From positions 1-64,000 of the forward strand of contig NZ_BAMX01000007.1 of the NCBI RefSeq assembly GCF_000963965.1: a stretch of DNA of 64,000 nt. Direction: 5' to 3'. Positions 86 to 40,688 of the stretch are shown piece by piece; within the stretch, counting starts at the first letter, position 1; each line of letters opens with the position of its first letter. This DNA is from Acetobacter orientalis (GTDB taxonomy: Bacteria; Pseudomonadota; Alphaproteobacteria; Acetobacterales; Acetobacteraceae). A program made the translations under genes and the position numbers. Under the pieces are notes generated by a model, which made no database searches, was not told where the DNA came from, and saw only the letters and a program-made list of their open reading frames with translations.

Positions 86-651
86 GTCCATCGCGCATGA
101 CGATCTTTATGGGGCAGCTTTGATGGCTTGCCTCCAGTCCTGTGGGATCCGTCCTTCACGCAGATCAGCCTGCTCCGCATTAGTATTACGTTACCTGAGA
201 GCCGCTACCAGTGTGGCACCGAGGATCTGACCTGACATCGGTAGGTAACCAGCGTTCCGAATGGTGACATTACAGCGATCAAACAGCGTTTCAATGGCAC
301 CCACCTGGATCAGGTGTTCGCGCAACAGCCAGGCTGTGTTTGGTATCCGGCAGGCGATCCGACAGCTCCAGACCAAGGAAGCGCATGAAGGACAGGCAGT
401 CGTTGATAAGGTCTTCCGTCCGTTCGTCGAGGCAAATTGCTCAGCGTCTGGATGACCAGAATTTTGAATATCAGCACTGGATCAAACGGAGGACGACCGC
501 CTTTGCTTCCGTCTGAATAGACCAGTGCCTTGTTCAACTCCGGACGGAACACCTCAAAATCCACAGTCCGGGAAAACGCTTCAAATTGGTCACCGAGCCC
601 ACTCAACCGAGCAAGCCGCTCTTCAACATCAAAGAAACCAGGCTGCATCAT
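86..651 (-). pseudogene. IS5-family transposase remnant, frameshifted and truncated
   Basis: The N-terminal part (starting MMQPGFFDVEERLARLSGLG, from 651 leftwards) is a well-preserved IS5-type transposase start. The frame is broken at least three times: near 430, near 375 (the sequence resumes as LREHLIQVGAIETLFDR) and near 200 (it resumes as RNTNAEQADLREGR). A last recognisable piece, KLPHKDRHARWT, ends at about 86. It directly abuts the terminus of the neighbouring IS copy. The catalytic C-terminal half is missing, so the gene is dead. The coordinates span the decayed pieces rather than one reading frame. Confidence 0.75.
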
Positions 652-745: not shown

Positions 746-1729
746 ATGTATACATATAATGCTCTTATACCTAACTACGCACTAAAAGATATTCAAGAAA
801 ATCTTGCTGTTGTTCATTATGGTAATGAAAAAACCAGTATCACTACTCAAAATGATGTGCTCCACATCTGTATTCCCTCTGCTCAAACGCAACTTACGGA
901 ATATTGGAGCTTGCTGCATCTAACCACAGAGGATGCAAACCAAAGGCAATGTCACGCCACGGGCACTGAGGGGTGGTGTACTGATGGTGAGAATTTTTTT
1001 GCAGCCTGCCTTGTTCCTGATGGGCCAGAACTCGCTCCTACCTCAAAGCAGGCGTATATGCGCTTAATACAGCTGGCAGAACAGCTTGGTTACGCCAATA
1101 TTTACCGTATTTGGAATTATGTCGGGCGTATTAACGCCCCAAATAATAATGGGCTTGAACGTTACCGTGACTTTTGTTTGGGTCGGGCAGACGCATTTGA
1201 AGCCTTAAAGTATGCACCCACAACATTACCGGCGGCAACGGGCATTGGTTTCCAAAATGGTGGGGTCGTTGTGTTTTTGATTGCGCGTAAAACACCCCAA
1301 GCCACAAATATTGAAAACCCCCTACAGGTTCCCGCTTACCAATACCCCCAGCGTTACGGCCCTAAAGCACCGTCTTTTGCGCGTGCAACTGTTATTAAGG
1401 TACAAAACGGCTTTTGCCTTTATGTTTCAGGAACGGCAAGTATCCGAAACCATACATCCCTCACGCAGAATATCGAGCAAGAAATTGCCATAACAATTCA
1501 AAATATTCAGCAGCTTTTGAAGACAGCTGCTACCAAATATCCTACCTTTAAACAGAGCATATGTGATTCTTTAAAAATTTACGTGCGACATAAAAAAGAT
1601 ATACCCTTAGTGTCTCAGGCTCTCCAAGCTGCTTTTGGTGTTGAAGCCGCACAAGCTCCCGTTTTAATTTCAGACATTTGCCGGGCAGAATTATCTTTGG
1701 AAGTTGAAGGTGTTTTTCGCGCACCATAA
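746..1729 (+). CDS. Chorismatase (XanB2/FkbO/Hyg5 family)
   Basis: This 327-residue protein belongs to the chorismate-hydrolysing family that includes Xanthomonas XanB2, which makes 3- and 4-hydroxybenzoate from chorismate, and the FkbO and Hyg5 starter-unit enzymes. Family hallmarks are visible in order: RIWNYVGRIN followed by GLERYRDFC and GRADAF in the first half, PAATGIG mid-protein, then YQYPQRYGP, SFARA, LYVSGTASI and a C-terminal CRAELSLEVEG. The length matches XanB2. I prefer ATG 746 because a TGGA at 735-738 sits upstream of it, but an in-frame TTG at 734 is possible. It converges on the aryl-polyene operon, so supplying the hydroxybenzoate starter of the pigment is the natural role. 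Which isomer it makes cannot be read from the sequence. Confidence 0.85.
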   Translation: MYTYNALIPNYALKDIQENLAVVHYGNEKTSITTQNDVLHICIPSAQTQLTEYWSLLHLTTEDANQRQCHATGTEGWCTDGENFFAACLVPDGPELAPTSKQAYMRLIQLAEQLGYANIYRIWNYVGRINAPNNNGLERYRDFCLGRADAFEALKYAPTTLPAATGIGFQNGGVVVFLIARKTPQATNIENPLQVPAYQYPQRYGPKAPSFARATVIKVQNGFCLYVSGTASIRNHTSLTQNIEQEIAITIQNIQQLLKTAATKYPTFKQSICDSLKIYVRHKKDIPLVSQALQAAFGVEAAQAPVLISDICRAELSLEVEGVFRAP

Positions 1730-1734
1730 CACGG

Positions 1735-1770
1735 CTGCTCTGTATTGAATAAAACTGCAATACAGAGCAG
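1735..1770. terminator. Bidirectional hairpin between convergent genes
   Basis: A perfect 13-bp stem (CTGCTCTGTATTG at 1735-1747 and its complement at 1758-1770) has a 10-base loop and lies between two convergent stop codons. A T-rich run (TGTTTTTA) follows on the + strand, so it should end the chorismatase transcript and probably the pigment operon too. Confidence 0.75.
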
Positions 1771-1792
1771 ATCATGTTTTTAAGAAGCTACC

Positions 1793-3058
1793 TTAGGTTT
1801 TTAGACCCAGTTTCTTTTTTAATACGCTTACATCAAACACCGCTTTAAAAGCTGTTATGGGCAGCCCTACCCGCCAACCTGCGGCAAAATCCCCCGCGAG
1901 GAGAGAAATAATTGCATCGCGCATACGCAAAATATTACGTGGGTGCATAAATAATTTGCGTAAAACAGGGTGGTTAATACGGTAAATCAACCATGAAATA
2001 CGGCGCATTTCTTTGCAGGTTTGAGCCTCTGCCGCCTGTGCTGCCTTAGCACCTGCCTGTGGGCTACGCAGCCATGCCTCTGCAACACCAGCCCCCCGAA
2101 AAGCACTCTTCATTGCTAGCAAAACACCTGATGAAAAAACAGGGTCAAGAAAGGCGTAAGCATCGCCTATCATATAATACCCTTCTCCCCATGCTTTGTC
2201 GGCGCGGTAAGAATAATTTCCTGTTGTGGCAAGTGGGTTTAGCAACTCAGCTTGGGCCATACGCTCAGCTACACTTGGGCTTTCCTGCACTTTTTGCCAA
2301 AACAGGTCTAGTACTGGCCCTTGGTGTTTACGAAACGCACTTTTATCGCCCACAAACCCAACGCTCATAATACCATCAGGCAGCGGGATCATCCAAAACC
2401 AACCCTCTTTAACCAGATGGATGGAAATATACCCCTCCATACCGGCCCCTCTGCGCGGTACATTCCTAAAGTGGCTGTATATTGCTGCTGTGGAGTTATT
2501 TTTATCTGCATTTCTGCGCCGTTTACGGGTTGCCAAAAACCCATCTCGGCCAGAGGCATCAAGCACAAAACGGGCCGCAAAATGGTGCTCTTGCCCGTCT
2601 TTGTCTTGGGCTGTTACAAGGGTTGCGGCATCTGGCTTAAAATCTGCCTGCGTAACCTTAATATTTTCAAACGTTTTAGCCCCGTTTTTAGCCGCGTTTC
2701 GGAATAACAACTCATCAAAATCTGCGCGTAGCACCTGATACGCATGGTCATACCGTGCACCAATAGCATGATGAAAGGCAAAAGCCTGACGGCCCTCGCC
2801 TGTTTCCACCACAAATTCAGCGCCGGGCTTATAAATACCCATGGCCTGTACTTGCTCTAATACGCCTAACTCGCGCAGTAAGGGCAAGTTACACGGCAGG
2901 AGAGATTCTCCAATATGAAAGCGGGGGTGTGCGTCTTTTTCCAGCAAAACAACGTTGTGGCCCTTACGGGCCAGAAGCGTTGCAGCAGTACTCCCGGCTG
3001 GGCCGCCCCCAATAACGAGCACATCACAATTCTGCACTGAAATTTCTGGCACGTTCAT
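1793..3058 (-). CDS. FAD-dependent oxidoreductase, tryptophan-halogenase-like
   Basis: A 421-residue flavoprotein of the tryptophan halogenase / geranylgeranyl reductase group. The N-terminal dinucleotide-binding motif VIGGGPAGS starts near residue 15, and ESLLPCNLPLL is typical of the family. Near residue 221 lies GWFWMIPLPDG, which contains the WxWxIP signature of flavin-dependent halogenases. Such enzymes occur in xanthomonadin and other aryl-polyene clusters and may halogenate, hydroxylate or desaturate the aryl polyene. The sequence alone cannot decide which. It is the last gene of the pigment operon; its ATG overlaps the TGA of the ketoreductase gene by four bases. Confidence 0.8.
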   Translation of the reverse strand: MNVPEISVQNCDVLVIGGGPAGSTAATLLARKGHNVVLLEKDAHPRFHIGESLLPCNLPLLRELGVLEQVQAMGIYKPGAEFVVETGEGRQAFAFHHAIGARYDHAYQVLRADFDELLFRNAAKNGAKTFENIKVTQADFKPDAATLVTAQDKDGQEHHFAARFVLDASGRDGFLATRKRRRNADKNNSTAAIYSHFRNVPRRGAGMEGYISIHLVKEGWFWMIPLPDGIMSVGFVGDKSAFRKHQGPVLDLFWQKVQESPSVAERMAQAELLNPLATTGNYSYRADKAWGEGYYMIGDAYAFLDPVFSSGVLLAMKSAFRGAGVAEAWLRSPQAGAKAAQAAEAQTCKEMRRISWLIYRINHPVLRKLFMHPRNILRMRDAIISLLAGDFAAGWRVGLPITAFKAVFDVSVLKKKLGLKT

Positions 3059-3774
3059 GCCATGCCTCCGTTAATACCAATAGTTTGGCCGTTAATATAC
3101 CCCGCTTGCCCAGAGGCAAGAAAAGCCACCAAATCAGCAACCTCCTCTGGTTGGCCAGCCCTTTTAGCTGGCACCAGTGCTGCAATTTGCTCAGCACTCA
3201 TAACCGCTGCCGTTGCGGGAGAGGCAATAACACCGGGGGCTACAGCGTTAACTGTAATACCCCGCCCCCCGACCTCACGCGCGAGGGAACGTACTGCCCC
3301 CTCCAGCCCCGCTTTAGCCGCAGCGTAATTTACCTGCCCCCTATTACCAATACGCGCCGTAACAGAGGAAAGGGCAATAATACGCCCCCAACGGGTACGG
3401 GTCATGGGCAGTAATAAAGGCTGCACCACCGCATAAAACCCATCAAGCGAAACGCCCAGCACATCGCGCCACTGAGTTTCTTCCATACCTGCCATGGTGA
3501 CATCATCGTGCGTGCCAGCATTATGCACCACAATTTGGGGCACCCCACCCGCCAGCACTGTAGCCAGAGCATGCTGTGTTGCAGCAATATCTGCTAAATT
3601 TGCTCTCCATGCTTCTGCGCTAAACCCTTGCGCCTGCAAACTGCTAACTAATGCACAAGCGCGCTCGGTTGAGGCATGGGCGTGAACAATAACATGCAAG
3701 CCATCAGCCGCCAGACGCTGGCAAATAGCCGCCCCAATAGGGCTAGTACCACCCGTTACAAGTGCCCGCTTCAT
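3055..3774 (-). CDS. 3-oxoacyl-ACP reductase, FabG-like (pigment operon)
   Basis: A 239-residue short-chain dehydrogenase/reductase. It shows the Rossmann motif TGGTSPIG near the N-terminus, NAG near residue 85, a serine in LSSVTARIG, the catalytic tyrosine and lysine in NYAAAKAG near residue 148, and the C-terminal GYINGQTIGINGG typical of FabG. It should reduce the beta-keto group after each extension of the ACP-bound polyene, as ApeQ does in E. coli. It overlaps the dehydratase gene upstream and the flavoprotein gene downstream by four bases each, so translation is probably coupled. Confidence 0.88.
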   Translation of the reverse strand: MKRALVTGGTSPIGAAICQRLAADGLHVIVHAHASTERACALVSSLQAQGFSAEAWRANLADIAATQHALATVLAGGVPQIVVHNAGTHDDVTMAGMEETQWRDVLGVSLDGFYAVVQPLLLPMTRTRWGRIIALSSVTARIGNRGQVNYAAAKAGLEGAVRSLAREVGGRGITVNAVAPGVIASPATAAVMSAEQIAALVPAKRAGQPEEVADLVAFLASGQAGYINGQTIGINGGMA

Positions 3775-4211
3775 ACGTGGCCCTCTGTTTGGCGTAGCAT
3801 GACTGTGCCGCGCCCTGTCACCAGCACTGTGCCATCTCCTGCCAACACCCTAAACGCGTAGGCTAACCCTCCGGCCATGCCATGCTCTTTGCAAACATGA
3901 ATGTGCAGCGTGCCATAAGCTGGGTTATCAAGCCGCTCGCACGCAATAACCACATCACGCAAGGCAGCTAAATAACCGGGGGGGCTATTTGCCTCTCCCG
4001 TTAAGGTACCGTGCAACGCTGCGGCTTGCATGGCAATTTCTGCCGCAACAAGTGGGCCTAGCTGCCCATTGCGGCGTAAAGGGTTGTGTACATCATAATG
4101 TGCGCGGCTTGTGGCATGCAATGTTGTAGCCGACCACGCCACACAGCTATCGAGCAAGCAGCTTGCCCCTTGGTGCGGAATACGACTTAAAATGGCGTTA
4201 CGATCTAGCAT
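3771..4211 (-). CDS. Hotdog-fold 3-hydroxyacyl-ACP dehydratase, ApeP-like
   Basis: A 146-residue single hotdog-domain protein. The N-terminal IPHQGASCLLDSCV matches the IPH-x-G-x-x-LLD motif of ApeP-type dehydratases in aryl-polyene clusters; the histidine is the expected catalytic residue. The central GPLVAAEIAMQAAALHG corresponds to the helix carrying the acidic partner. It would dehydrate the 3-hydroxyacyl-ACP to build the conjugated double bonds. A second dehydratase is fused to the ligase encoded at 10002-11654. The gene overlaps the chain-length factor gene by seven bases and the reductase gene by four. Confidence 0.82.
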   Translation of the reverse strand: MLDRNAILSRIPHQGASCLLDSCVAWSATTLHATSRAHYDVHNPLRRNGQLGPLVAAEIAMQAAALHGTLTGEANSPPGYLAALRDVVIACERLDNPAYGTLHIHVCKEHGMAGGLAYAFRVLAGDGTVLVTGRGTVMLRQTEGHV

Positions 4212-4999
4212 GGGCTAACCTCTACCTTGAGTTGCCCCGGCTGACAGGCCACCTTAACAGAACCATTACGCGACTGCGCCAAACAGGTGAGCAAAGACAA
4301 ACTACGGGCAGCAGGGTTGCCCACAGCTAAGGCCCGCAAACCATCATGCGCGGGCATATCTGCTCTCTCGGTGCTTTGAGGGTCATAACACAGTGTTAGC
4401 TGGGCTATAGCCTGTTGGCTTAAGTCTGGGTCAAGCACGAGAGCACACGCAAAAGATGCTTTGGTAACACGCACTGTACCAACCGGGCCGGGAATAGGCT
4501 GGTCATACGCCACAAATAAAACCGGGTGCTGCTCTACCACTGCCTCAGACACTGCTTTTAAAAGCCCCAGCCCAAAAGACCAGTCGTAACACCCCAATGC
4601 TGTGGCAGAAGCAATAGAGCCGTGCCCGATTGTCCAATAGCCAGCAGGGGCATTATGCACCGAGTTATGAAACTGCGTGGGGGAGACCTCACCCCCCGGT
4701 TCAGACAATGCTTTGAGAATACCGTCTATAACCCCGCCATCTCCATTTGCGCTCGCAAAAACCACGGATAGACCAGACGGTTTTACACCGGCTAAAGCGC
4801 AAGCTTCTTCTGCTACCGCAATAGCTAAGCGCGTTACCGGGCCAGAACGCCTACGCTCGTTAGGGGCAAGGGCAGCAGCAGGCGGGGGTATTTGCGCCTG
4901 ATCTGCCCATTCTGCCCTACCTTGCAAACAGGCTTGTGCCTGCGCCCAGCCAGCCAACCCCGGCCCCCAGACAGACACGCCACGCACACTAATTTTCAT
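4205..4999 (-). CDS. Ketosynthase chain-length factor, ApeC-like
   Basis: A 264-residue protein of the truncated ketoacyl-synthase type found beside the catalytic ketosynthase in aryl-polyene loci (beta-ketoacyl synthase family 2). Recognisable parts are WGPGLAGW at the N-terminus, VFASANGDGGV, and QFHNSVHNAPAGYWTIG in the middle, where catalytic synthases carry the active cysteine and this protein has none. In the E. coli system the partner forms a heterodimer with the ketosynthase and sets chain length. Here it follows the ketosynthase gene with a four-base overlap, which supports a one-to-one complex. Confidence 0.82.
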   Translation of the reverse strand: MKISVRGVSVWGPGLAGWAQAQACLQGRAEWADQAQIPPPAAALAPNERRRSGPVTRLAIAVAEEACALAGVKPSGLSVVFASANGDGGVIDGILKALSEPGGEVSPTQFHNSVHNAPAGYWTIGHGSIASATALGCYDWSFGLGLLKAVSEAVVEQHPVLFVAYDQPIPGPVGTVRVTKASFACALVLDPDLSQQAIAQLTLCYDPQSTERADMPAHDGLRALAVGNPAARSLSLLTCLAQSRNGSVKVACQPGQLKVEVSPC

Positions 5000-6198
5000 T
5001 GAGCAGCCCCCAATACAAGGCTACAATTTGTGCCCCCAAACCCAAACGCATTGCTCATAACATAGCGTACTGGCGCTGTTGTATTGCGGGTCATAACCTG
5101 CGCCTTAAACGTAGGGTCAAGCTGCGTAATATTTAGCCCACCCGGCAACAGACCGTCTTGCAGCGTTATGCTGCACATCATGGCTTCCAGAATACCAGAC
5201 GCGCCGAGTGTATGGCCTGTCCAACCTTTGGTAGAGGCACACGGTACTTTATCGCCAAAGACTGTGTAAACTGCGCGGTCTTCCATGGCGTCATTCGCAA
5301 GGCTGCCGGTACCATGCAGGTTAATGTACCCGATATCAGCCGGTTTAAGGCCAGAGCGGGTAAGAGCCTGCTGCATAGCCGCCACAGCCCCACGCCCTTG
5401 GGGGTCTGGGGCAGACATATGGTGGCCATCGCTACTAGCCCCGCACCCTAATAAAAGAGCCTGATACCACACAGCTTGCACTAGGGGCCGTACGCCTGGG
5501 CGTTCTAGCAAGGCAAACCCCGCGGCCTCTCCTATGGAAATACCATGCCGCTGTGCATCACCGGGCCGGGTGGGGTATTCATCTACCAAACCTAATGCGC
5601 CAAAGCCGCGTAATGTCATGCCGCACAGGCTGTCTGCCCCACCAACAACCACTGCATCGCACACACCGGCCTCTATCCAATGCCATGCATCTAAAAACGC
5701 ATGGGAAGAAGAAGCACAGGCATTGGAGACGGTAAGGCAGGGCCCTTCAAGCCCTAAAGCCGCCGCCACATATGTGGGCAAAGAAAAAAGGTCTTGCGTG
5801 TGTTGCTGGTCAAAACCTGGGGGCATGGTGCCATGCTCTACATCACGCTTGGCATAGGCTTGCTCGGTGCTCAAAATACCAGAGGTAGAAGTACCCATAA
5901 TAACCGCAATACGTGTTGGGCCATAATAGGCCCGCGCCTGCGCTACAGCTTGGCTAAACCCATCTGTATTAAGCGCCATATCAGCCAGCCGGTTATTGCG
6001 GCAGTCAAACTGCTGTAAAGGCTCTGGTAGCTTGTGGTTTTCAACCCCCACCACGCGGCCCATATAGCCTTGTGCTACGCCCGCAAAATTACAGGGCACC
6101 AGCCCGCTGCGCCGCTGCTGTAGGGCAACACGCGTAGGTGCTACACCAAGCCCAAGGGCGCTAATGGCTGTTCCGGCTGAGATAACAAGCGGTTTCAT
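4996..6198 (-). CDS. Beta-ketoacyl-ACP synthase II-like, ApeO-like
   Basis: A 400-residue condensing enzyme with the complete Cys-His-His triad: cysteine in SNACASSSH near residue 158, histidine in NLHGTGSLAND near 292, histidine in KGWTGHTLGASG near 326. The C-terminal NAFGFGGTN is also typical. I start it at ATG 6198, where ATGA overlaps the stop of the MMPL gene. A longer frame reaching 6318 would run 120 bases back into that gene and adds no family sequence. It extends the polyene with malonyl-ACP units together with the chain-length factor. I see only one catalytic ketosynthase in this locus, whereas the E. coli cluster has two. Confidence 0.9.
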   Translation of the reverse strand: MKPLVISAGTAISALGLGVAPTRVALQQRRSGLVPCNFAGVAQGYMGRVVGVENHKLPEPLQQFDCRNNRLADMALNTDGFSQAVAQARAYYGPTRIAVIMGTSTSGILSTEQAYAKRDVEHGTMPPGFDQQHTQDLFSLPTYVAAALGLEGPCLTVSNACASSSHAFLDAWHWIEAGVCDAVVVGGADSLCGMTLRGFGALGLVDEYPTRPGDAQRHGISIGEAAGFALLERPGVRPLVQAVWYQALLLGCGASSDGHHMSAPDPQGRGAVAAMQQALTRSGLKPADIGYINLHGTGSLANDAMEDRAVYTVFGDKVPCASTKGWTGHTLGASGILEAMMCSITLQDGLLPGGLNITQLDPTFKAQVMTRNTTAPVRYVMSNAFGFGGTNCSLVLGAAQ

Positions 6199-8531
6199 GC
6201 CCCGTCTGTTGCCGCAGAGGGCGAATATTGTCCAGCCAGCATAAAGCTGAACAGCATGAACAAAAATGCACCACACGCCACAGTTATACCAATCTCGCGC
6301 AGTAAAGCTGTGTGGCACAAACCTAAAAGTCCAAAAGCCAACACGGTCATAACGTTACAGGTTAGCAGCGTGCGCATAGTTCTGGCCCGCTCTGCACTAT
6401 CTAACTGGGGCCTAGCAAAAAACAGGGCGTAATCAAGCCCTACGCCCAGCACAAACTGTATTGAAACCAAATGAATAAGAGAAACCGGCACACCGCGCAG
6501 CGCCAATAGGGCTAACAGCACAACCATAGCAGCGCCCACTGCACACAAAACGCGGGTAAGTCGCTGAATATTACGCAACCCCACAACCAGCACCACAAAG
6601 GCCAAGCCAATACCAACAGCCATCCATTTTAGGGTACGAGCTGTGTGGTGTGCGGTAAGCGCGTTAACCTCGTGGTTCAAATCAAGCGCCATAACATCTG
6701 GCTGGCCAGCCAAAGCCACCTGAATTACTCCAAAATCTGTCACGGCCTCAGGTAATACCATACCCCACCACCCATCTGGGCGTTGAAACAAAAGTGGGGC
6801 TAACGCCATTTCCAGCGGGGTGCCGGCCAAGTCTGGCGGGGTAAGGGCTGGCATGGCACGGGCTTTAGCAACATCAGCCACAAACTGGTCAAACGCTTCT
6901 TTTTTAAACGGTAAACCGGCCTGCTGTTGCACCACGCGCGCTGCAAGAATTGCCCCCTCTGGCAAAGCCTGTGTACGGGTCTGTTGCAAAGCAACGGAAG
7001 GCAGAATATGCGCCGCATCTTCAACCCCTACCAGCGCCCCTTTTTGCGCCAGACTGGTAAACAGCCCATGCAAGGCCTCCTCTCGTTGCAGCACAGCTTG
7101 GGCGCTCTGTGCATGCACAATAATAACATGAGAGGAATCGGGTGCTCCCAGCTCGTGTCGTAATGCCATATCCAAACTACGTGCCGAGGCAGGAATAGGG
7201 CTTAACGCCGTCAGGTCTTTTTCAGCCACCAAAGGCCGCCATACCAAAACAGCTATAGCGCCCATAACTGGCAGCACACAAAGCCAGCGCCACCGCCGCC
7301 ATTGCTCGGCCCGTGCAAGCGGGGCAGATGGCCCACTAACAGAGGGCGCTAGGTCTGCTGCAACAATAAGCGATGGCATAACACCCAAGGTAACACACGC
7401 CGCACTAAGCAACCCAACGGCAGAAAACACGCCAAGCTGCACTAAACCCGGCAGCCCACATAACACCATGCCGGTAAGGCCCAACACGGCCGTTGTTACC
7501 GCAAGGCGCAGGCTTGGGCCTATTCTGCGCAATGTGGCTTGTGGCCCCTCCCCCGCATCTCGGTGACCTATTAGCAGCACTGGGTAGTCTAAAGACACAC
7601 CAAGCATGGTCATGCCAAACCCAAAGGCAATGCCATGCACATAGCCAAAGCAAAGCCTAACAACCACCATGGCCACACTAAGCGAAAGCAGAAACGGCAC
7701 CCCAATAGCCGCCAACACCCATAAAGAGCGAAAACGCCAATACAAAACCGCCACGACCAGTACGGTTGAAAAGGCAGACATCATTTCAATATCGTGCCGC
7801 ATACTGTGCGCGCTTTGCACGGCAAACACAGCGGGCCCGCTTACGAGCAACCGCGCCTGGCCGGGTTGTGCCTTGGCAAACGCCGCTTGAATGGCGTTTT
7901 GTGTTAAACGCTGCGCAGCAAGATCCATACCCGCAGCCCGTGTACGCAAGAGCATAAGAGCACGGTTACGGTCTGAGGCAAACCAGACCCCTTGCTTTAA
8001 AGTGGCATGCACAGCGGGTTGTAAATGCCGCATAACATTAAAAAAAGCGCCGGTTGGGTCTCGTAGGGCAAAGGCCACCACAAGTGGCTCGGCTGAAGAT
8101 TGAAGGCCGTCCCATACGTGTTCAAACCCCTTAGCCAAAGCGCCGGGTGAAAAATCGCGCACGCTCGCATCGGGTGCCAGTTGGTAGCGGTGGTCAAACA
8201 GCAAATCCCGCATTGCGGGGCTATCATCAAGCGAGAAAGACCCGTTTAAAACCAACAGAAATTGAGAATCTTGGCTCAGGCTATCCTGCATCTGGTGGCT
8301 AATGCGTGCCAACTCAGTCTCTGGTGCGCCTTCTATGCCCACTGTAATGAGCGATGCCGCTACCCCGCCCCGTACCTCTCTAAGCAAAAAGCGGGTAGCT
8401 GCATTATGGCCCTGCGGTAAAAACCCCGCCATATCAAGCCGTAGCGGAATACTCGAAAAAACAATAAACGCCACAAGGGCCGAGGCCAACAAAGCATAAG
8501 CAAGCCGCTTGGGGTTTTTACGCGCGCTCAA
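6195..8531 (-). CDS. MMPL/RND-superfamily exporter
   Basis: A 778-residue inner-membrane protein with two similar halves, each starting with one membrane helix, then a soluble loop and a bundle of helices. The first helix is LLASALVAFIVFSSIPL. The conserved stretch GMTMLGVSLDYPVLLIGHR in half one has a counterpart, VSIQFVLGVGLDYALFFAR, in half two, as in MMPL and SecDF-type transporters. MMPL proteins accompany LolA-like carriers in aryl-polyene clusters and are thought to pass the finished lipid-linked pigment towards the outer membrane. Its gene lies between those of the LolA-like protein and the ketosynthase, overlapping both by four bases. Confidence 0.85.
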   Translation of the reverse strand: MSARKNPKRLAYALLASALVAFIVFSSIPLRLDMAGFLPQGHNAATRFLLREVRGGVAASLITVGIEGAPETELARISHQMQDSLSQDSQFLLVLNGSFSLDDSPAMRDLLFDHRYQLAPDASVRDFSPGALAKGFEHVWDGLQSSAEPLVVAFALRDPTGAFFNVMRHLQPAVHATLKQGVWFASDRNRALMLLRTRAAGMDLAAQRLTQNAIQAAFAKAQPGQARLLVSGPAVFAVQSAHSMRHDIEMMSAFSTVLVVAVLYWRFRSLWVLAAIGVPFLLSLSVAMVVVRLCFGYVHGIAFGFGMTMLGVSLDYPVLLIGHRDAGEGPQATLRRIGPSLRLAVTTAVLGLTGMVLCGLPGLVQLGVFSAVGLLSAACVTLGVMPSLIVAADLAPSVSGPSAPLARAEQWRRWRWLCVLPVMGAIAVLVWRPLVAEKDLTALSPIPASARSLDMALRHELGAPDSSHVIIVHAQSAQAVLQREEALHGLFTSLAQKGALVGVEDAAHILPSVALQQTRTQALPEGAILAARVVQQQAGLPFKKEAFDQFVADVAKARAMPALTPPDLAGTPLEMALAPLLFQRPDGWWGMVLPEAVTDFGVIQVALAGQPDVMALDLNHEVNALTAHHTARTLKWMAVGIGLAFVVLVVGLRNIQRLTRVLCAVGAAMVVLLALLALRGVPVSLIHLVSIQFVLGVGLDYALFFARPQLDSAERARTMRTLLTCNVMTVLAFGLLGLCHTALLREIGITVACGAFLFMLFSFMLAGQYSPSAATDGA

Positions 8532-9094
8532 GGGGCAATGGTCATGGTTTGCGTGTCCCCGTTGGCTTGCACCAGCACAATACGCAAAATGGCATTGTTC
8601 TTGCCGCTCAATGTCACACTCTTAGCCAATGCCGCCACTTTATCTGACGCTGGCGTTAAATAAAGGCTCCAGTCAGCGCCCTGCTCTGTTGCCGTAATGT
8701 GGTAGTAGCGCCGTAATAAAGCGGCGTCTCCATCTAAGGGCGCGCGCAATGTATCAACCAACAGCCGTAGGGCTGGCACACGGGCGGTATCAACACTTTG
8801 GGGGGCGGTGTGGTTGCGGCTAATGGTTACCATGTCACCATTAATCACTAAATCTTCTGCCCGTGGTTGCTCGGTGGTTTTTTGCAAATAACCGGGGTGA
8901 CGGTAAATAAGCACGCCTGAACTTTCAAGCGGGGCTTTTAAGGCAGCAAGCGTGCGTGTTTCATGAAAAGGCTTTTGCCGGGTTTGCACCTGCCCTAGGC
9001 GGTTTATAAGGCTGTCGGCAAGGTCTTGCGCAAAGACTGGCTGGGTCCAGTGTAGCACACACACACCGCAGGCCAGCATAAACCATCTTTTCAT
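8528..9094 (-). CDS. LolA-related periplasmic carrier
   Basis: A 188-residue protein with a clear signal peptide (MKRWFMLACGVCVLHWTQPV, cleavage after VFA). The mature part resembles the LolA-like proteins of aryl-polyene clusters: FHETRTLAALKAPLESSGVL followed by a YRHPGYL segment and strand-rich sequence. The expected role is to ferry a hydrophobic product across the periplasm between the MMPL exporter and the outer membrane. The assignment rests on this pattern and on context; primary sequence conservation in this family is low. Confidence 0.78.
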   Translation of the reverse strand: MKRWFMLACGVCVLHWTQPVFAQDLADSLINRLGQVQTRQKPFHETRTLAALKAPLESSGVLIYRHPGYLQKTTEQPRAEDLVINGDMVTISRNHTAPQSVDTARVPALRLLVDTLRAPLDGDAALLRRYYHITATEQGADWSLYLTPASDKVAALAKSVTLSGKNNAILRIVLVQANGDTQTMTIAP

Positions 9095-10002
9095 GACCGC
9101 TCCTTCCAGAAATCATAAAAATTGAACCACGAAAACGGGTCTCGGCGGCATAAAGTTTCAAGCCATGCAGCATAGCGTGCCAGCCATGTTTTTAATATTT
9201 GCGCTTGTTGTGTGCGTGTACCGTCAAGTTTTATGTGCTCGGCAAACGGCTCAAAGCGAATATCATAGTGCCCATCTGAGCACCGCAAAGCGCTAAACAA
9301 GACAACTGGTGCACCCGTTATGGCGGCAAGCCTTAGGGGCCCAAGCGGCAATGGGGCATCTTTACCCAAAACAGGCACAGCCATAGAGCGCCCCATATCT
9401 GGTGCGCGGTCACCCAAAATAGCCACGACCTGCCCCTGCTGCAAAGCTTCTGCTACGTGCAGCATGGTGTGTGGCTCACCAATATGAATAATGGCGTTTT
9501 CGTAATTCGGGTCGAGCTGCTCTATCGCTTTACTGGCGGCCCCAACAAAGCGGCGGTACATAAGCACGCGCAAACGTATTTTACGTGAGGCAAAACGGCT
9601 GACAGAACGCAGCGCGTCAAACGAGCCAACATGCGCCCCCAGTAAAATACAGCCTTTCCCTTTATCAAGAGCCTCAAAAATAGCCTCGCTCCCGCACACG
9701 GTGTAAGGCGGCACTGTCGCTTTATTGCCCAGTATAAAAATACGGTCGAGCACAGTAAGCGCATAAGCATGGATATGCCGCCAGCGCTCCAGCCCTGTTG
9801 GCCTACGCCCTAATGCACGGCATAAATACACCCACGAGCCACGCCGTGCTGTGCCATCATGCAGCAAATAATAAAATGAAATTGGCCAGATAAAACGCGT
9901 AAGGACTTTCCGGCCTAAAATACGGGCCAAAAACAACATAACCGCCATAACCGCATAATTGCCGCGCTCTGGGGCCAGCCATGTTTCAGCCTGCTTACTC
10001 AT
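9091..10002 (-). CDS. LpxL/HtrB-like lysophospholipid acyltransferase
   Basis: A 303-residue protein of the lipid A acyltransferase family. The core catalytic motif is in CILLGAHVGSFDALR near residue 120, where histidine and aspartate have the H-x4-D spacing. ILGDRAPDMGRSMAVPVLG and the C-terminal RDPFSWFNFYDFW are also typical. In aryl-polyene and xanthomonadin loci such an enzyme is thought to attach the aryl-polyene carboxylic acid to a lipid or glycolipid head group in the inner membrane. Its ATG overlaps the TAA of the ligase gene (TAATG) and its end overlaps the LolA-like gene. Confidence 0.85.
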   Translation of the reverse strand: MSKQAETWLAPERGNYAVMAVMLFLARILGRKVLTRFIWPISFYYLLHDGTARRGSWVYLCRALGRRPTGLERWRHIHAYALTVLDRIFILGNKATVPPYTVCGSEAIFEALDKGKGCILLGAHVGSFDALRSVSRFASRKIRLRVLMYRRFVGAASKAIEQLDPNYENAIIHIGEPHTMLHVAEALQQGQVVAILGDRAPDMGRSMAVPVLGKDAPLPLGPLRLAAITGAPVVLFSALRCSDGHYDIRFEPFAEHIKLDGTRTQQAQILKTWLARYAAWLETLCRRDPFSWFNFYDFWKERS

Positions 10003-11654
10003 TAAGCGTGCGCTACGCGAAAAGTGGCACGTAACACCGCATTACCCCCTACACGGCCCGTTAAGCGTGCCCTAGCACCTTCGGTTTTCAAGAAAAAAAC
10101 CACCTGCTGCCCCGGCAAAACAGGCTGCATAAATTTAACCTGCAAAATATGTGTGGGCGCTTCTTTGGCTTGCGCCAAACCTTCTTCCAACACCACCACG
10201 CCGGGCACAACTGGCTGGCCGGGAAAATGCCCCGGCAAACAAGGGTGGTCTGGGCTAACGCACAGCGTACCCAACTGTACCCCATCAGCTTCCTGCGCAG
10301 CCAACTGGCGTAAACCCTGCACGGTTAGCTTTCCAACAGAGTTACGCGGCATAGCCTCAACCAACACAACACGGCGTGGTAAGAACGCAGGGTCAAGCTG
10401 CTCGCGCAGGTGCTGCATAATTTGCTCTGCGGTAAGGTCTGGTGCCACAGCAAAAACCTGCATGCGCGCCAAGGCACCGCTTTGGTCTTCCTCTGGAGCT
10501 AAAAACGCACCATCGATAACTCCCGGCACGGCAAGCAAAACAGTATTCAATGCTGCAAGCGATGTGCGTTTAGCAGCAAGTTTGACAATATCGCTTTTAC
10601 GCCCAATCAACTTAAAGTGCCGCTCAGGCAAAGGCTCCACAAAATCTGATAACGGGAAAGCTGGCGCACCCGGAGCACTTATGCTGGCGTCTTCACCCGC
10701 CACCTCTAGCACAACACCTTTATAAAGCTGCCATAACGGGGTTTGTGTTGTATGCCGCATAGCAACAGACCCTATTTCGGTTGCGCCGTAAATTTCCATC
10801 ACGGGTGCTGCCAACGTAAGCTCTGCTTCATGCGCCACGGCCATGTCCATAGGGGCTGCGGCAGAAATAACTCTGGCAATATGTGGCAAAGCAAGGTTGG
10901 CCCGTAAAAGGCTGCGCAACTGCAACGGAGTTGTCACCAAAATGCGCGGTGCGGGAGAACGCTCCAGCAGAGCTTGCCAGTCTGCCGGGTAAGCGCATGG
11001 CCCTGTTGTGGTTCTGCCCCGTGTGTGTATGGCTTGTAAAACCAATGTTTCAAACCCGTACATATGGTACGGCGGCACTGTGCCGACTGCGGTAGCTGGT
11101 GCTTGTTCAGGGTCTAATAAGTCACGCGCAACACAACTACGCTCGACTAATGCGCCCCAATGTTTTCTATGCCCAACCGGTTGCCCACTGCTGCCAGAGG
11201 TAAACACAACGGCAACAAGTTGCGCACTATCAATAACCGGGTTGGCGGAAAGATGTACCCCCTCTTGCGGCACAGCCTGCCTAGCGCCTATTGGCAGCAC
11301 TAGGCTGTTAGGCGGCAGCCCCTCGGTGGGCAGGTCATTTTCTAGCGCAACGCAAACCGCGCCATAATCCTGCACTAAATCAGTTAAGCGGCTTACTGTA
11401 CGATCACTTGAAAGCAGCAAATACTGGCCACGCAATACCACGGCTAAAAACAAAACCGTAAAAGACCAAATATCTTGGCACAAAGACACCACTGGACAAT
11501 CTGGCAACTGCTGCGCAAGTTTGTGCGCAGCATGCAAAAGATCGTACCCAGTTGCAGGGCCGGACGGGGTATAAAACACCGTTCGCTCAGGAGTATAAAC
11601 TAAGCTTAAATCACGCTCTGCTGTATGCTGCACAGAGCTGGCCACCTGTGTCAT
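10002..11654 (-). CDS. Acyl/aryl-acid ligase fused to hotdog dehydratase (ApeH-ApeI-like)
   Basis: A 550-residue two-domain protein. Residues 1 to about 440 form an adenylate-forming enzyme with the phosphate-binding motif VVFTSGSSGQPVGHRK near residue 150, MEIYGATEIGSVAMR as the acyl-binding core, and a C-terminal PRNSVGKL with the expected lysine. From about residue 460 a hotdog dehydratase follows with HPCLPGHFPGQPVVPGVV, the ApeI signature. The ligase would load the hydroxybenzoate starter onto the ACP and the second domain would dehydrate elongation intermediates. In E. coli these are separate genes. ATG 11654 is chosen because it overlaps the ACP stop codon by four bases; an upstream in-frame start at 11687 is less likely. 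Confidence 0.85.
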   Translation of the reverse strand: MTQVASSVQHTAERDLSLVYTPERTVFYTPSGPATGYDLLHAAHKLAQQLPDCPVVSLCQDIWSFTVLFLAVVLRGQYLLLSSDRTVSRLTDLVQDYGAVCVALENDLPTEGLPPNSLVLPIGARQAVPQEGVHLSANPVIDSAQLVAVVFTSGSSGQPVGHRKHWGALVERSCVARDLLDPEQAPATAVGTVPPYHMYGFETLVLQAIHTRGRTTTGPCAYPADWQALLERSPAPRILVTTPLQLRSLLRANLALPHIARVISAAAPMDMAVAHEAELTLAAPVMEIYGATEIGSVAMRHTTQTPLWQLYKGVVLEVAGEDASISAPGAPAFPLSDFVEPLPERHFKLIGRKSDIVKLAAKRTSLAALNTVLLAVPGVIDGAFLAPEEDQSGALARMQVFAVAPDLTAEQIMQHLREQLDPAFLPRRVVLVEAMPRNSVGKLTVQGLRQLAAQEADGVQLGTLCVSPDHPCLPGHFPGQPVVPGVVVLEEGLAQAKEAPTHILQVKFMQPVLPGQQVVFFLKTEGARARLTGRVGGNAVLRATFRVAHA

Positions 11655-11938
11655 GACGGCTGGCGATGTGCCGCCACATGCGTGCACAGGCTACGCAAAG
11701 AGCTAAAAATTTCCCGGCTATTGGGGTCATCAGAACGAAGTGTTACGCCGTAATCTCGGCCAATCATCAGCACAATTTCAAGCGCGTCAATAGAATCAAG
11801 CCCCAAGCCATCACCAAAAAGCGGGGCTTCCGGGTTAATTTCATCAGCCGTGACCTCAAGCTGCAAAGCTTCAACCAGCCGTTCAGCCACTTCATGCTCA
11901 AAGGGCGTTTGCAGAGTAACAAATGATTGCGTATTCAC
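11651..11938 (-). CDS. Acyl carrier protein of the pigment cluster
   Basis: A 95-residue acidic carrier protein. The phosphopantetheine site is the serine in GLGLDSIDALEIVL near residue 49. It begins with GTG at 11938, preceded by a GAGAG ribosome-binding sequence. It heads the ten-gene operon and would hold the growing aryl polyene (XanC-like). It is the only ACP seen in the locus, whereas the E. coli aryl-polyene cluster has two. The start codon of the divergent membrane protein gene lies only nine bases away. Confidence 0.88.
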   Translation of the reverse strand: MNTQSFVTLQTPFEHEVAERLVEALQLEVTADEINPEAPLFGDGLGLDSIDALEIVLMIGRDYGVTLRSDDPNSREIFSSLRSLCTHVAAHRQPS

Positions 11939-11947
11939 GGAACTCTC

Positions 11948-12625
11948 ATGTCAGATGAAAAATTTGTTAGTCCAGTATCACACAGCCCCGCTCACGCAAA
12001 GCGAGCAAAAGGCTTTTTGGGCATAACACCCCTGTTGCGCAAAGCCGGTTTGGCTCTGTTGGTGTGTAGTTTTATCGTGCCGCGTCTTGGCACGCTGTGC
12101 GACCTGCCACCGCACTATACCACACTTACGCTGCTTTTTTGCCAAGGGGGTGGCATTGCCCTGCTCACTCAAAAATTCCGCTTATGGGTGCCTGTGACTG
12201 CGGCTACCCTTTTACCAGCGTGGTACTGGCCAACCACGCTACGCCTTATAGACGTATGTGGCCTCTATACTCTTGCGTTAGCCACGCCAGCTTGGGTTTT
12301 TATCGGCTCGCTTCTTCCTCAAAAAGAGGCACTTATCACCAAATTTGCCCGCCAAACACATGGCGGCCTACGCCCCGATATTATGCGTTACACTTATTGC
12401 TTAACGTGGTTTTGGAGTTTGTTTTTTGTATTAGCCCTTCTTGCCCCTCTTATACTTTGGCAATACGGCCCACATGGTGCATGGCAATGGCCTTTAAATG
12501 GCGGCACTTTTGCACTGGCTGTTATTTGTGGATTACTGGAATATGGCCTTAGGCGCTTGGTCATACGTAATTTCAAGCATGCTTCCCTTCGCACCTCGAT
12601 AGACCTCTTTAGAAAGCAAGCCTGA
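11948..12625 (+). CDS. Multi-spanning membrane protein, COG4648-like
   Basis: A 225-residue protein with about five or six hydrophobic segments, beginning with AGLALLVCSFIVPRL near residue 40 and ending with GTFALAVICGLLEYGL. I place it with the uncharacterised COG4648 membrane proteins often encoded in aryl-polyene loci, but this rests on context and general appearance more than on a firm motif. ATG 11948 leaves nine bases to the divergent ACP start. A longer frame from 11927 would overlap the ACP gene. It may help assemble or localise the pigment machinery, but no activity can be assigned. Confidence 0.65.
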   Translation: MSDEKFVSPVSHSPAHAKRAKGFLGITPLLRKAGLALLVCSFIVPRLGTLCDLPPHYTTLTLLFCQGGGIALLTQKFRLWVPVTAATLLPAWYWPTTLRLIDVCGLYTLALATPAWVFIGSLLPQKEALITKFARQTHGGLRPDIMRYTYCLTWFWSLFFVLALLAPLILWQYGPHGAWQWPLNGGTFALAVICGLLEYGLRRLVIRNFKHASLRTSIDLFRKQA

Positions 12626-12816
12626 TATACAGCAAAAGCATAATGCAACAGCCAAAAAGAAGAATTTTTAAGCCATTTTAGAGGAAATACTCTCTTACTT
12701 CCCTTATAATTGGGCATTATTTCTGCACCCTCCCTTGCCTCTCGCTCTATTTTTCTTAAAAAACAGCAATACTGCTTCGTTACGGGGCATATGTAAGTGA
12801 GGAACCAGACCCCATT

Positions 12817-13569
12817 ATGACCGACAACGCAGCCAGGCCACCCCACCCCGTTCTTTCTGCTTATTACCAAGACCCAACTAGCCGACAGGGGTTTGTGCAA
12901 TCTATTTTTGACCGCACAGCACGCCATTATGACCGGATCAATGCTATTTTCTCTTTAGGAAGTGGCCGTTGGTACCGTGGCTGGATGCTACGCCGCGTAG
13001 GGCTTAAACCCGGTGATAAAGTGCTGGATGTTGCCACCGGCACCGGCCTAGTCGCCCGAGAAGCTGCCCGCATTGCCGGTGCCCGTAATGTTATTGGGCT
13101 AGATATGAGTGCTGGCATGCTGGCCCAATGCCGCCAAAACCTGCCCATAGCTCTTGTGCAAGCCGATGCACAACGCCTGCCGTTTGCAGATGGTAGCCTA
13201 GATTTTCTCAGCATGGGTTACGCCCTGCGCCATGTAAGCGACCTGCGTAAAACCTTTATTGCCTACCGCCGCGCCCTTAAACCGGGTGGCACTGTGCTTA
13301 TTCTCGAAATTGCCCGTGCAAAAAGCCCTGCTCTGCAGGCCTTCCTTAAATTCTATTTAGGCCGTGTGGTGCCTATGCTCTCTGGTATTGCCGCCACAAA
13401 AGACAGCCGCAAACTGATGGAATATTACTGGGACACCATTGCAGAATGCGTGCCCCCCGAGGAAATCATGCAAAACCTACGCGATGCAGGGTTAGAGAAT
13501 GTACGCCGCTATACTTCGTTTGGGGTTTTTTATGCTTACGCGGCTAACGCGCCACACCAGTCTACTTAA
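12817..13569 (+). CDS. Class I SAM methyltransferase, UbiE-like
   Basis: A 250-residue methyltransferase. The SAM-binding motif VLDVATGTGL lies near residue 70, with GLDMSAGML and the acidic segment VQADAQRLPFADGS after it. FDRTARHYDRIN and the RWYRGW stretch near the N-terminus are typical of the UbiE/MenG group. Aryl-polyene clusters often include a methyltransferase acting on the aromatic ring or the carboxyl end. The position 190 bases after the COG4648-like gene on the same strand suits that role. A respiratory quinone methyltransferase (true UbiE) remains possible, and the sequence does not separate the two. Confidence 0.75.
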   Translation: MTDNAARPPHPVLSAYYQDPTSRQGFVQSIFDRTARHYDRINAIFSLGSGRWYRGWMLRRVGLKPGDKVLDVATGTGLVAREAARIAGARNVIGLDMSAGMLAQCRQNLPIALVQADAQRLPFADGSLDFLSMGYALRHVSDLRKTFIAYRRALKPGGTVLILEIARAKSPALQAFLKFYLGRVVPMLSGIAATKDSRKLMEYYWDTIAECVPPEEIMQNLRDAGLENVRRYTSFGVFYAYAANAPHQST

Positions 13570-13648
13570 CCCTTATACGACTTCTTGGTTAACCCCACCC
13601 ACCCCCTAACATCCATGACCCTGTATAAGAGGCTCCAAATAAATCCTC

Positions 13649-15106
13649 ATGTTTTTACGCGAGCCTCTAGTCGTCTTGTTGGCCCTCATCGTATGTAGTT
13701 TACCTCTTGTTGCCTTAGTACGCCCAAAAACGACAAAATTTTTGCATCCACTTGGTCTCGCTTTGCATAGTTTGCTGCTCACTGCATGCTATGGGCTATT
13801 CTTGCTGCTTTCAGGTTCCGCTTTATTTGCTGCGGCCCTAGCAGGGTGCTTAACCCTCGCGTTGGTTATTGCATCAAATTTAAAATGGACTGTACTAGGC
13901 GAACCCTTAGTCTTTAGTGATCTCTGTGTTATAAAAGATTTTGTAAAGCACCCTAAATTTTATATTTTTGCCATTCCAATACGCATACGCTTATGTGTTG
14001 TTTTTGCACTCTTTTGTATTGGCGTTGGCTATGCTGTCGCACTACGGCACTCCTGCCCTGTAACAGTGCGCCTTTGCGCTTTCGTGCTTACCGCCACAAC
14101 CACTCTATGTCTTGCCAGTCTTCCTGTTACTAGGCTGGCCCCTACTCCTGCTCTTAAAACTGATATTAGCCGCTTTGGACTATTAGGATGTTTATTTGTT
14201 TACTGGCGCTGCTGGCAAAAACAGCCCCCAGCTGTGCCACCCAACCACCAAGAGCAGACAGAACCTACCGCTCCCACATTCGACCTAATTGTAGTTGTTC
14301 AATGCGAATCTTTTACAGACCCACAAACCCTTAATTTGCCAGACACCGTCTCTTTACCCGACATGCCTGAATTAGAGCGCGCCAGAAGCATGGCCAGCCA
14401 CTACGGCGCGTTGCATGTCAACGGCTTTGGAGCTTACACAATTCGCACTGAATATGGCGTATTATTTGGCCGTAGCGAGCAAGAGCTCGCTTTTCAACAG
14501 TTTGACCCCTACCTAACAGCAAAACACGATACGGTATTTTCTCTCCCCCACAAACTGAGGCAGGCAGGGTACACGTCTGTTTTTCTACACCCCTACACGC
14601 TCGATTTTTCTAACCGTGGCAGCTTAATGCGCCATATCGGATTTGATGCTGTTCTGGGCGCAGAATCTTTCTCCCATATTCCCACCCCCGCTATGCCTTA
14701 TGTGCCAGATACACTCTTAGCAGATAAACTTATTGCCCTCTGCACAAGTGCAACCCAACCCTTGTTTCTTTACGCGGTAACCATAGAAAACCACGGCCCT
14801 TGGCAAGAAGAAGGTAAACCGCTCGAAACCTATCTTGAACACCTTAAAAATAGCGACCGTATGATAGGCCAAATTCTCAACAGCTTAGAAGCCAGCCAAC
14901 GCTCCGCCTTACTTGTCTTTTTTGGTGACCACCGCCCTTCTATTTGCCCAGACCTACCACCCACCACGGAACGCAGCACACCTTATTTTGTATCACCTAT
15001 TAGAAACAAAAAACCATACGAATTCGACAATAATATTGTATCGTTAACTCCTGCACAGCTACACCACATGATCATGAAATCAATAATAAATTTTCGTGAT
15101 AACTAA
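13649..15106 (+). CDS. LTA-synthase/sulfatase-like membrane phosphotransferase
   Basis: A 485-residue protein with about five N-terminal membrane helices (residues 5 to about 170) and a C-terminal alkaline-phosphatase-superfamily domain. The domain shows VVVQCESFTDP near residue 220 for the first metal ligands, FGAYTIRTEYGVLFG near 264 with candidate threonine nucleophiles, and VFFGDHRPSI near 425 for the remaining metal site. This resembles phosphoglycerol transferases (MdoB, LtaS, and relatives in capsule loci). It may decorate a periplasmic glycan or lipid. It lies 79 bases after the methyltransferase gene, so it may or may not belong to the pigment locus. Confidence 0.75.
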   Translation: MFLREPLVVLLALIVCSLPLVALVRPKTTKFLHPLGLALHSLLLTACYGLFLLLSGSALFAAALAGCLTLALVIASNLKWTVLGEPLVFSDLCVIKDFVKHPKFYIFAIPIRIRLCVVFALFCIGVGYAVALRHSCPVTVRLCAFVLTATTTLCLASLPVTRLAPTPALKTDISRFGLLGCLFVYWRCWQKQPPAVPPNHQEQTEPTAPTFDLIVVVQCESFTDPQTLNLPDTVSLPDMPELERARSMASHYGALHVNGFGAYTIRTEYGVLFGRSEQELAFQQFDPYLTAKHDTVFSLPHKLRQAGYTSVFLHPYTLDFSNRGSLMRHIGFDAVLGAESFSHIPTPAMPYVPDTLLADKLIALCTSATQPLFLYAVTIENHGPWQEEGKPLETYLEHLKNSDRMIGQILNSLEASQRSALLVFFGDHRPSICPDLPPTTERSTPYFVSPIRNKKPYEFDNNIVSLTPAQLHHMIMKSIINFRDN

Positions 15107-34704: not shown

Positions 34705-34728
34705 ACAAACACGCTTTCCGGTCAGCTT

Positions 34729-37569: not shown

Positions 37570-37608
37570 TATCTAAAAACTTTTGTTATGAAATCATCCT
37601 AAGCATAT

Positions 37609-38509: not shown

Positions 38510-38518
38510 AATCGACCA

Positions 38519-40638: not shown

Positions 40639-40688
40639 AACAACTCATTTTCATAAAATATTATTTTAATATCAAAAATCATGAATTT

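Follow-up and report, generated by a model that had tools for sequence, protein, structure and literature searches.

Aryl-polyene cluster of Acetobacter orientalis

The first 64,000 nucleotides of contig C60 of Acetobacter orientalis (NZ_BAMX01000007.1, positions 1-64000; genome G000, 2.9 Mb in 66 contigs), hereafter the window, contain an aryl-polyene cluster that is, judged from its genes, genuine, and that resembles xanthomonadin clusters in its chorismatase, its FAD (flavin adenine dinucleotide) enzyme and its single acyl carrier protein (ACP). Very probably its genes direct the synthesis, by a type II polyketide route, of a yellow outer-membrane pigment lipid of the aryl-polyene (xanthomonadin-like) kind. 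This class of cluster is already known, and its core is common in Acetobacteraceae; the variant features are an own enzyme for the aromatic starter and the lack of the usual sugar-adding gene.

The original prediction of an aryl-polyene or xanthomonadin-like type II polyketide locus is borne out by the ketosynthase (KS), the chain-length factor (CLF) and a small hot-dog dehydratase, which are closest to ApeO, ApeC and ApeI:P, respectively. The ApeO-like KS (4996-6198, ATG start; like all ten genes of the operon on the minus strand) has 6qsp_A (E 6.8e-70) and 7f28_B as best solved relatives, and the ApeC-like CLF (4205-4999; PF13723, E 9.7e-27) has only 7f28_A and 6qsp_B, 7f28 being what we take to be the Acinetobacter ApeO-ApeC pair. 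6QSP is the ApeO-ApeC pair of Xenorhabdus doucetiae, according to a passage of PMC8358021. A search of the whole genome with PF00109 found two ketosynthases, the cluster KS and one on contig C43, so that no ApeR is present.

For comparison, 200 genomes of Acetobacteraceae and 49 of Acetobacter were surveyed, the A. orientalis genome being included in both samples. A KS (E<=1e-60) was found in 72/200 and 12/49 of them, the closest one (81% identity) in G203 of the same genus, in agreement with the predicted acetic acid bacterium as host. The surroundings were fetched for 22 of the 71 other KS-bearing family genomes and for all 11 other KS-bearing Acetobacter genomes; together with four chorismatase or relic places these make 37 stretches, 33 of them with a KS (G and L numbers denote genomes and stretches). 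Cys160, His294, Lys323 and His328 of the KS are conserved in 34/34 aligned sequences.

The ApeP-like dehydratase (3771-4211) has by itself no Pfam or NCBIfam match. The best of five AlphaFold2 models from a four-sequence alignment (mean predicted local distance difference test score, pLDDT, 80.5) has the ApeI:P heterocomplex 6qsr_B as its top solved match, with FabZ enzymes close behind, and His13, Glu58 and Gln62 are identical in 34/34 sequences (the dehydratase alignment A1 comprises 32/34, omitting L067 and L069, both of which are kept in the residue counts). Three observations speak against this assignment of the dehydration step: the other models spread widely, from 70 to 41 mean pLDDT; the ApeP Pfam model matched, weakly, 1/32 members of the dehydratase family; and the ApeI-like Pfam match of the second dehydratase domain, which is fused to the ligase, is weak (E 0.0057).

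This fusion (10002-11687; PF00501 and PF07977, both above cut-off) combines an ApeH-like ligase with a FabA/ApeI-like dehydratase; in Roseomonas and Azospirillum, ligase and small dehydratase are separate proteins, each of which aligns to one half of it. Novelty of the fusion was considered and rejected, since 18/29 sequences have the aligned His in the dehydratase part (the other 11, with separate or split frames, show a gap there) and since the wording 'ApeH-Nt' in a passage of PMC8358021 points to a fused ApeH in Acinetobacter.

By BLAST or family hidden Markov models (HMMs), each of the ten operon genes can be paired with a gene of one or more such clusters on the named records of Klebsiella (L136), Azospirillum (L135) and Roseomonas (L137). 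Letters are given from gene order and the Escherichia coli list of PMC8253772. The Klebsiella cluster supplies pairings for ApeO, C, Q, P (HMM only), E, L and M and for the acyltransferase half of ApeJ, whereas those for the ligase, the small dehydratase and the FAD enzyme come from Roseomonas and Azospirillum; a ligase gene is missing from the Klebsiella stretch that was fetched. The ApeE-like ACP (11651-11938; PF00550, E 1.6e-9; NF006617, 113 bits, above cut-off) is 45% identical to the first Klebsiella ACP, and the ApeQ-like 3-ketoacyl-ACP reductase (KR; 3055-3774; NF004200, 310 bits, above cut-off) shows 41% identity with its counterpart in the Klebsiella cluster. Identity of the ApeM-like MMPL/RND-type exporter (6195-8531; PF03176, E 2.6e-16) amounts to 42% with the Roseomonas and 28% with the Klebsiella cluster gene. 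The LPLAT-type acyltransferase at the ApeJ position (9091-10002; PF03279, E 1.2e-9) matches with 30% residues 262-555, the C-terminal half of the Klebsiella glycosyltransferase/acyltransferase, and the LolA-like carrier (8528-9094; PF19574, E 1.7e-19) is ApeL-like by cluster comparison.

Concerning the extent of the locus, the predicted end at 12625 is a real gene end, but it is that of an eleventh gene which had not been recognised: an ApeG-like membrane protein on the plus strand (11948-12625, ATG start), divergent from the ACP gene and the operon, which hhalign relates to the ApeG-position proteins of Klebsiella (96.0%, E 3.9e-9) and Azospirillum (98.9%, E 2.4e-17). The prediction of one KS plus CLF, one ACP and no thioesterase agrees with the ketosynthase count in the genome and with searches of the window with Klebsiella and Azospirillum proteins (tblastn, E<=0.01), which gave no second ACP, thioesterase or DUF3261 protein, a genome-wide search not having been made for thioesterase or second ACP. 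The set can hardly be called minimal, as had been proposed, because genes for a UbiE-family methyltransferase (12817-13569) and a phosphoglycerol-transferase-like protein (13649-15106), both on the plus strand, follow just past that end and the core is shared across the family. Reduction of the locus through decay was rejected, since its genes are without stops and the inspected active-site residues are conserved.

The methyltransferase is 51% identical to one of the Azospirillum cluster and lies within 17/37 of the fetched stretches, some of which end short of its position. It was rejected as the housekeeping UbiE, as it reaches 124 bits against PF01209 compared to 278 for the UbiE at C43:248619. 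Being distinct from the latter and matched by a cluster-type enzyme, it makes methylation a likely step of the predicted pathway.

Chorismatase

The chorismatase (746-1729, plus strand, ATG at 746) belongs to the FkbO/Hyg5 family (PF21168, E 3.5e-31; TIGR04444, 255 bits, below the cut-off of 325) and carries the residues of the hydroxybenzoate-forming types, which supports the predicted ability to make hydroxybenzoate. According to passages of PMC7170507, Gly164, Gly231 and Cys318 of Nat-hyg5 mark the type forming 3-hydroxybenzoate (3-HBA), and the catalytic Glu325 of Nat-hyg5 equals Glu334 in Hyg5. The counterparts in the window (by alignment to 5ag3, with a constant offset of 9) are Gly166, Gly229, Cys312 and Glu319. 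The latter three are invariant in 10/10 aligned chorismatases, and Gly166 is replaced by Ala in L080, L094 and L095; in the alignment to the Hyg5 and FkbO structures, the second and third marker positions are occupied by Ala in FkbO. Given these residues, hydroxybenzoate is the expected product and 3-HBA would be likelier than 4-HBA, with the proviso that chorismatase sequence alone does not settle the product (PMC3949708).

In a survey that used one protein as query (E<=1e-15), such that distant chorismatases may escape, the enzyme was found in 10/200 family genomes and in 3/49 Acetobacter genomes (G000, G203, G211). Hence the 'own chorismatase' of the original prediction is an optional neighbour of the cluster. 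It occurs in 8/72 KS-bearing versus 2/128 KS-lacking family genomes (Fisher p 0.005), and in 6/8 of those with both (G000, G086, G118, G130, G158, G170) it lies within 20 kb of the KS. Its position there differs: it is convergent with the FAD gene in the window and in L059, lies beside the ApeG-like gene in L076 and L078, behind the UbiE-like gene in L079 and L081, and beyond the glycosyltransferase in L080. The chorismatase tree has two deep groups, one with the window, G203, G211, G158, G170 and G118, the other with G100, G157, G130 and G086 (on a long branch); a broken copy in L083 was omitted from alignment and tree. Different positions and two deep groups suggest that chorismatases were recruited more than once. 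The chorismatase gene has a GC content at third codon positions of 0.36, versus 0.44-0.55 for the operon, as would be expected of a later arrival, yet in L076 and L078 the GC content of the chorismatase resembles that of the surroundings.

A close tie between chorismatase and cluster is weakened by several facts. The Fisher test ignores kinship, and without the A. orientalis genome p is 0.011; chorismatase and KS are about 1 Mb apart in G100 and G157; in the other two Acetobacter genomes, the chorismatase is linked in G203 but situated on another contig in G211; and 64/72 KS-bearing family genomes have no chorismatase at the threshold used, so that the starter must also come from elsewhere. 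A rule by which the chorismatase accompanies loss of the glycosyltransferase was rejected, since the linked-chorismatase loci L080 and L081 retain the latter. As for the two KS-lacking holders, G081 has a distant relative (31%), whereas G032 (L083, G032:C12) possesses both flanks of the cluster region of G118 and G170 with the cluster gone and an N-terminally broken chorismatase left, apparently one case of chorismatase decay after cluster loss.

Glycosyltransferase and phosphoglycerol-transferase-like gene

The predicted lack of a glycosyltransferase holds for the cluster type: none was found in the window (tblastn with the Klebsiella and Azospirillum proteins, E<=0.01), and the cluster glycosyltransferase was not found genome-wide at E<=1e-10. 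The query of the latter search (P0001) shows 39% identity with the Klebsiella protein at the ApeJ position (N-terminal half) and 52% with the Azospirillum cluster GT2 (a family 2 glycosyltransferase). In relatives, e.g., L064-L067, L070 and L072, this gene sits between the ApeG-like and UbiE-like genes.

The KS-bearing Acetobacter clusters were divided by their glycosyltransferase and lipoprotein content into six of type A and six of type B, the latter including the window. The cluster glycosyltransferase is present in 6/6 type A genomes (one being the source of the query, one with stops) and in 0/6 of type B; it also occurs in G219, with stops and without a KS at threshold, and weakly in G234. 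A lipoprotein-like gene is likewise found in 6/6 type A (one broken, one the query's own) versus 0/6 type B genomes, as well as in G219. The KS tree alone separates the types (support 100/98 for A and 87/82 for B), with other genera beside A. The absence of the glycosyltransferase is thus a lineage difference within Acetobacter.

Conversely, the gene for the membrane phosphoglycerol-transferase-like protein (13649-15106; PF00884, E 3.9e-29), a possible anchor modifier, is cluster-linked in 5/6 type B and absent from 6/6 type A genomes; in the sixth type B genome, G239, where the cluster lies on a contig of 3.9 kb, this gene finds no match at all. The gene occurs also in G229, G244 and partly in G240, all without KS match. 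Its solved relative is the phosphoglycerol transferase GacH (E 2.2e-8), and the LtaS model gives 23.5 of 970 bits. The simplest history would be one loss of the glycosyltransferase and one recruitment of the phosphoglycerol-type gene, the twelve genomes not being twelve independent events. A family-wide cluster gene it is not: relatives exist in 39/200 family genomes, in other genera away from the KS (in G107 on the KS contig, about 26 kb off), and this candidate was rejected.

The glycosyltransferase has been lost and possibly replaced. Addition of the sugar by another enzyme is conceivable as well, because two GT2-family genes (39583-40638, 40689-41555), unrelated-looking, lie 27 kb away, one of them weakly matched by the Klebsiella glycosyltransferase (25%, E 0.003).

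Several further observations concern the Acetobacter clusters. A lipoprotein-like family of about 470 amino acids (L065:13630-15039 and relatives), without Pfam or NCBIfam match, accompanies the glycosyltransferase clusters. Type B clusters without chorismatase have a small lipoprotein-like gene behind the FAD gene (L061:13732-14094, L062:6013-6375, L063:13213-13578), of which the copy in L063 weakly resembles an STN domain (E 0.0005, below cut-off). Signs of decay are present in some genomes: the ligase frame is split in G200 (L062), as are several frames in G227 (L069), and the glycosyltransferase of G219 and G220 contains stops.

Proposed pathway and alternatives

Gene content, homology, conserved active-site residues and the comparative pattern were observed, and from these every reaction, substrate and product of the following scheme is predicted. 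The chorismatase would convert chorismate to a hydroxybenzoate starter, which the ligase domain would load onto the single ACP and KS and CLF would extend with malonyl units. In each cycle, reduction by the KR would be followed by dehydration through the ApeP-like protein and the ApeI-like domain of the ligase fusion, yielding a conjugated polyene, and the UbiE-like methyltransferase and the FAD enzyme may tailor the ring. The acyltransferase would then move the chain from the ACP to a lipid acceptor, and the MMPL, ApeG-like and LolA-like proteins would carry the lipid to the outer membrane. With the sugar-adding enzyme gone in this lineage, the anchor may be modified by the phosphoglycerol-transferase-like enzyme in its place.

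It is very improbable that the genes serve another pathway, e.g., a flexirubin-type one or a lipid without aryl starter. The flexirubin NCBIfam models FlxB and LolA2 do match the KR and the LolA-like gene, albeit below cut-off, but the kinship of KS, CLF and dehydratase with the Ape enzymes stands against it, the gene order agrees with the named proteobacterial clusters, and no dialkylresorcinol genes were recognised in 746-15106. Within the aryl-polyene pathway, halogenation of the ring by the FAD enzyme, as proposed for xanthomonadin and suggested in the original prediction, is a tentative idea. This enzyme (1793-3058; halogenase/monooxygenase superfamily; PF04820, E 3.5e-28; 49% identical to the Roseomonas cluster gene) has halogenases as best solved relatives, led by 5buk (E 1.2e-50), and the marks of halogenases, the Lys that precedes Gly-Ala and the two Trp of WxWxIP, are conserved in 27/27 aligned FAD enzymes. 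In Lysobacter, moreover, absence of a halogenase gene has been linked to a non-brominated pigment, according to a passage of PMC3691225. On the other side, the flavoprotein/dehydrogenase 3nix scores about equally, and the NCBIfam models for the monooxygenase QhpG (165 bits) and the maturase LodB (135 bits) match besides that for the halogenase CmlS (202 of 900 bits), none reaching its cut-off; furthermore, the pigment of an Azoarcus cluster that includes a halogenase gene was not brominated (PMC3949708). Two FAD-enzyme genes stand side by side in the cluster of G158 (L079:3318-6022).

A second function of the chorismatase, which as a XanB2-type enzyme would give 4-HBA, either alongside 3-HBA or as the main product, and serve ubiquinone besides the pigment, is possible but not favoured. 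XanB2 does so in Xanthomonas (PMC5069965, PMC3949708), and neither UbiC nor a PF01947 lyase match was found in the A. orientalis genome; however, the three markers of the 3-HBA-only type described in passages of PMC7170507 have their counterparts here, in a comparison with Hyg5 and FkbO and under the above proviso on sequence as evidence for the product (PMC3949708), and 186/200 family genomes lack matches to UbiC, PF01947 and the chorismatase alike, such that relatives make ubiquinone without it and the chorismatase is not the general 4-HBA source of the family. A source of 4-hydroxybenzoate, or of another ubiquinone ring precursor, is consequently unaccounted for in most Acetobacteraceae examined; a passage of PMC12423496 states a similar gap for Hyphomicrobium denitrificans. 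As to the anchor, the explanation that 13649-15106 is an envelope gene without relation to the neighbouring cluster, the pigment being unglycosylated or glycosylated by another enzyme, is evenly poised. Relatives away from the KS in other Acetobacteraceae (e.g., G022, G025, G118, G170), a second copy on contig C53 of the same genome and the other GT2 genes in the window are compatible with it, and linkage in five Acetobacter genomes may reflect one inherited event. Yet the linked copies form a clade of their own (97/92), apart from the C53 copy, they stand beside the cluster even at 67% KS identity, and they are absent from all six type A genomes.

The most far-reaching reading is a speculative one, which we consider rather unlikely as a whole: that type B clusters swapped glycosyltransferase and lipoprotein for a phosphoglycerol-type transferase, giving new, phospho-decorated and sugar-free aryl-polyene lipids, and that chorismatases of two deep lineages were recruited as a plug-in starter module to at least four positions beside clusters in one family. 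The contrast of types A and B within one harmless genus constitutes a natural experiment, with the same polyene core and different anchor genes, and chorismatase-bearing clusters permit a direct test of 3-HBA versus 4-HBA as starter.

Comparison with known systems

The organization of the window is most similar to that in Acetobacter cibinongensis 4H-1 (NZ_BAMV01000007.1; L054, equal to L059 of G203), which has the same genes in the same order, including chorismatase, methyltransferase and phosphotransferase-like gene, with identities from 68% (chorismatase) to 95% (ACP) in the cluster and 64% in the phosphotransferase-like gene. A plasmid of Roseomonas haemaphysalidis (NZ_CP061178.1, L137) shares ACP, ApeG-like protein, ligase, acyltransferase, LolA, MMPL, KS, CLF, dehydratase, KR and 'halogenase', whereas its small dehydratase is separate, an antiporter, MipA, a deacetylase and a methyltransferase are additional, and the stretch contains no chorismatase. 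Equally, a plasmid of Azospirillum ramasamyi (NZ_CP029832.1, L135) shares the core, the FAD enzyme and the UbiE-like methyltransferase mentioned above, but differs in a GT2, a second acyltransferase, a deacetylase, another methyltransferase, MipA and a separate small dehydratase, and has no chorismatase in the stretch.

The xanthomonadin and arcuflavin clusters of Xanthomonas and Azoarcus BH72 are similar in that they have a chorismatase (there of the XanB2 kind), a halogenase gene (in the window the FAD enzyme, a putative halogenase), one ACP, a KS with an N-terminal-KS partner, LolA, an exporter and a methyltransferase, whereas they have a glycosyltransferase and further genes; the likeness is drawn from a published table (PMC3949708). 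The marker residues of the linked chorismatase in the window point to the Hyg5 type rather than to XanB2, in a set without a XanB2 sequence, as no XanB2 reference was found in the plasmid collection searched. In Lysobacter, according to a passage of PMC3691225, the pigment fell by about 90% when the XanB2 homologue was lost and was recovered with 3-HBA.

The ape clusters of E. coli CFT073 (PMC8253772) and Klebsiella share ApeO, C, Q, P, E, G, L, M and the acyltransferase half of ApeJ, but have two ACPs, a second KS (ApeR), a thioesterase, a glycosyltransferase and ApeN, and no chorismatase or halogenase. Such extra genes of the E. coli type vary among clusters, Azoarcus being listed with one ACP (PMC3949708).

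For Acetobacteraceae, passages of PMC8776678 report aryl-polyene clusters of the same family, with a KS, ligase, dehydrogenase, 'probable halogenase' and transport genes; chorismatase and xanthomonadin are unmentioned in its text by word search, and A/B subtypes do not appear in these passages. Two further publications report aryl polyenes in food acetic acid bacteria (PMC12131263) and in Bombella apis (PMC8262860). None of the literature searched joins xanthomonadin, aryl polyene and chorismatase. Among the matches listed, a Pseudomonas genome survey contains both 'aryl polyene' and 'phosphoglycerol transferase'. Around a match in Variovorax (H6), no aryl-polyene gene set was found.

Arrangement of the genes and other features of the window

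All genes listed in the original prediction are open frames without internal stops at the coordinates it gave and, apart from the small dehydratase, match the families it assigned. The ten minus-strand genes (1793-11938) probably form one operon, since every pair of neighbours overlaps or abuts, and recurrence of the identical gene set and order at loci of other genomes counts against chance. The chorismatase had been said to face these ten genes, which is correct in that the two units (746-1729 on the plus, 1793-11938 on the minus strand) are convergent, tail-to-tail. Between their stop codons, a terminator-like perfect inverted repeat of 13 bp with a loop of 10 bases was read from the sequence (1735-1770); the terminator scan, which permits loops of up to 8 bases, does not list it. 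Promoter and terminator scans gave chance level only, and an Rfam scan of the window gave no match. A weak DUF772 transposase-like fragment (310-651, minus strand; 19.2 of 23.1 bits) adjoins the chorismatase, not far from where the contig begins.

Farther along the window, two giant overlapping frames on the minus strand (19699-29124 and 29007-32786; 3141 and 1259 amino acids) match no Pfam model, contain very few tandem repeats, and are perhaps one interrupted gene. The following region (33991-41555, minus strand), with a response regulator, a hybrid histidine kinase, an ABC exporter pair and the two GT2 genes mentioned above, is an island of foreign-looking composition, in which the GC content falls to about 30%.

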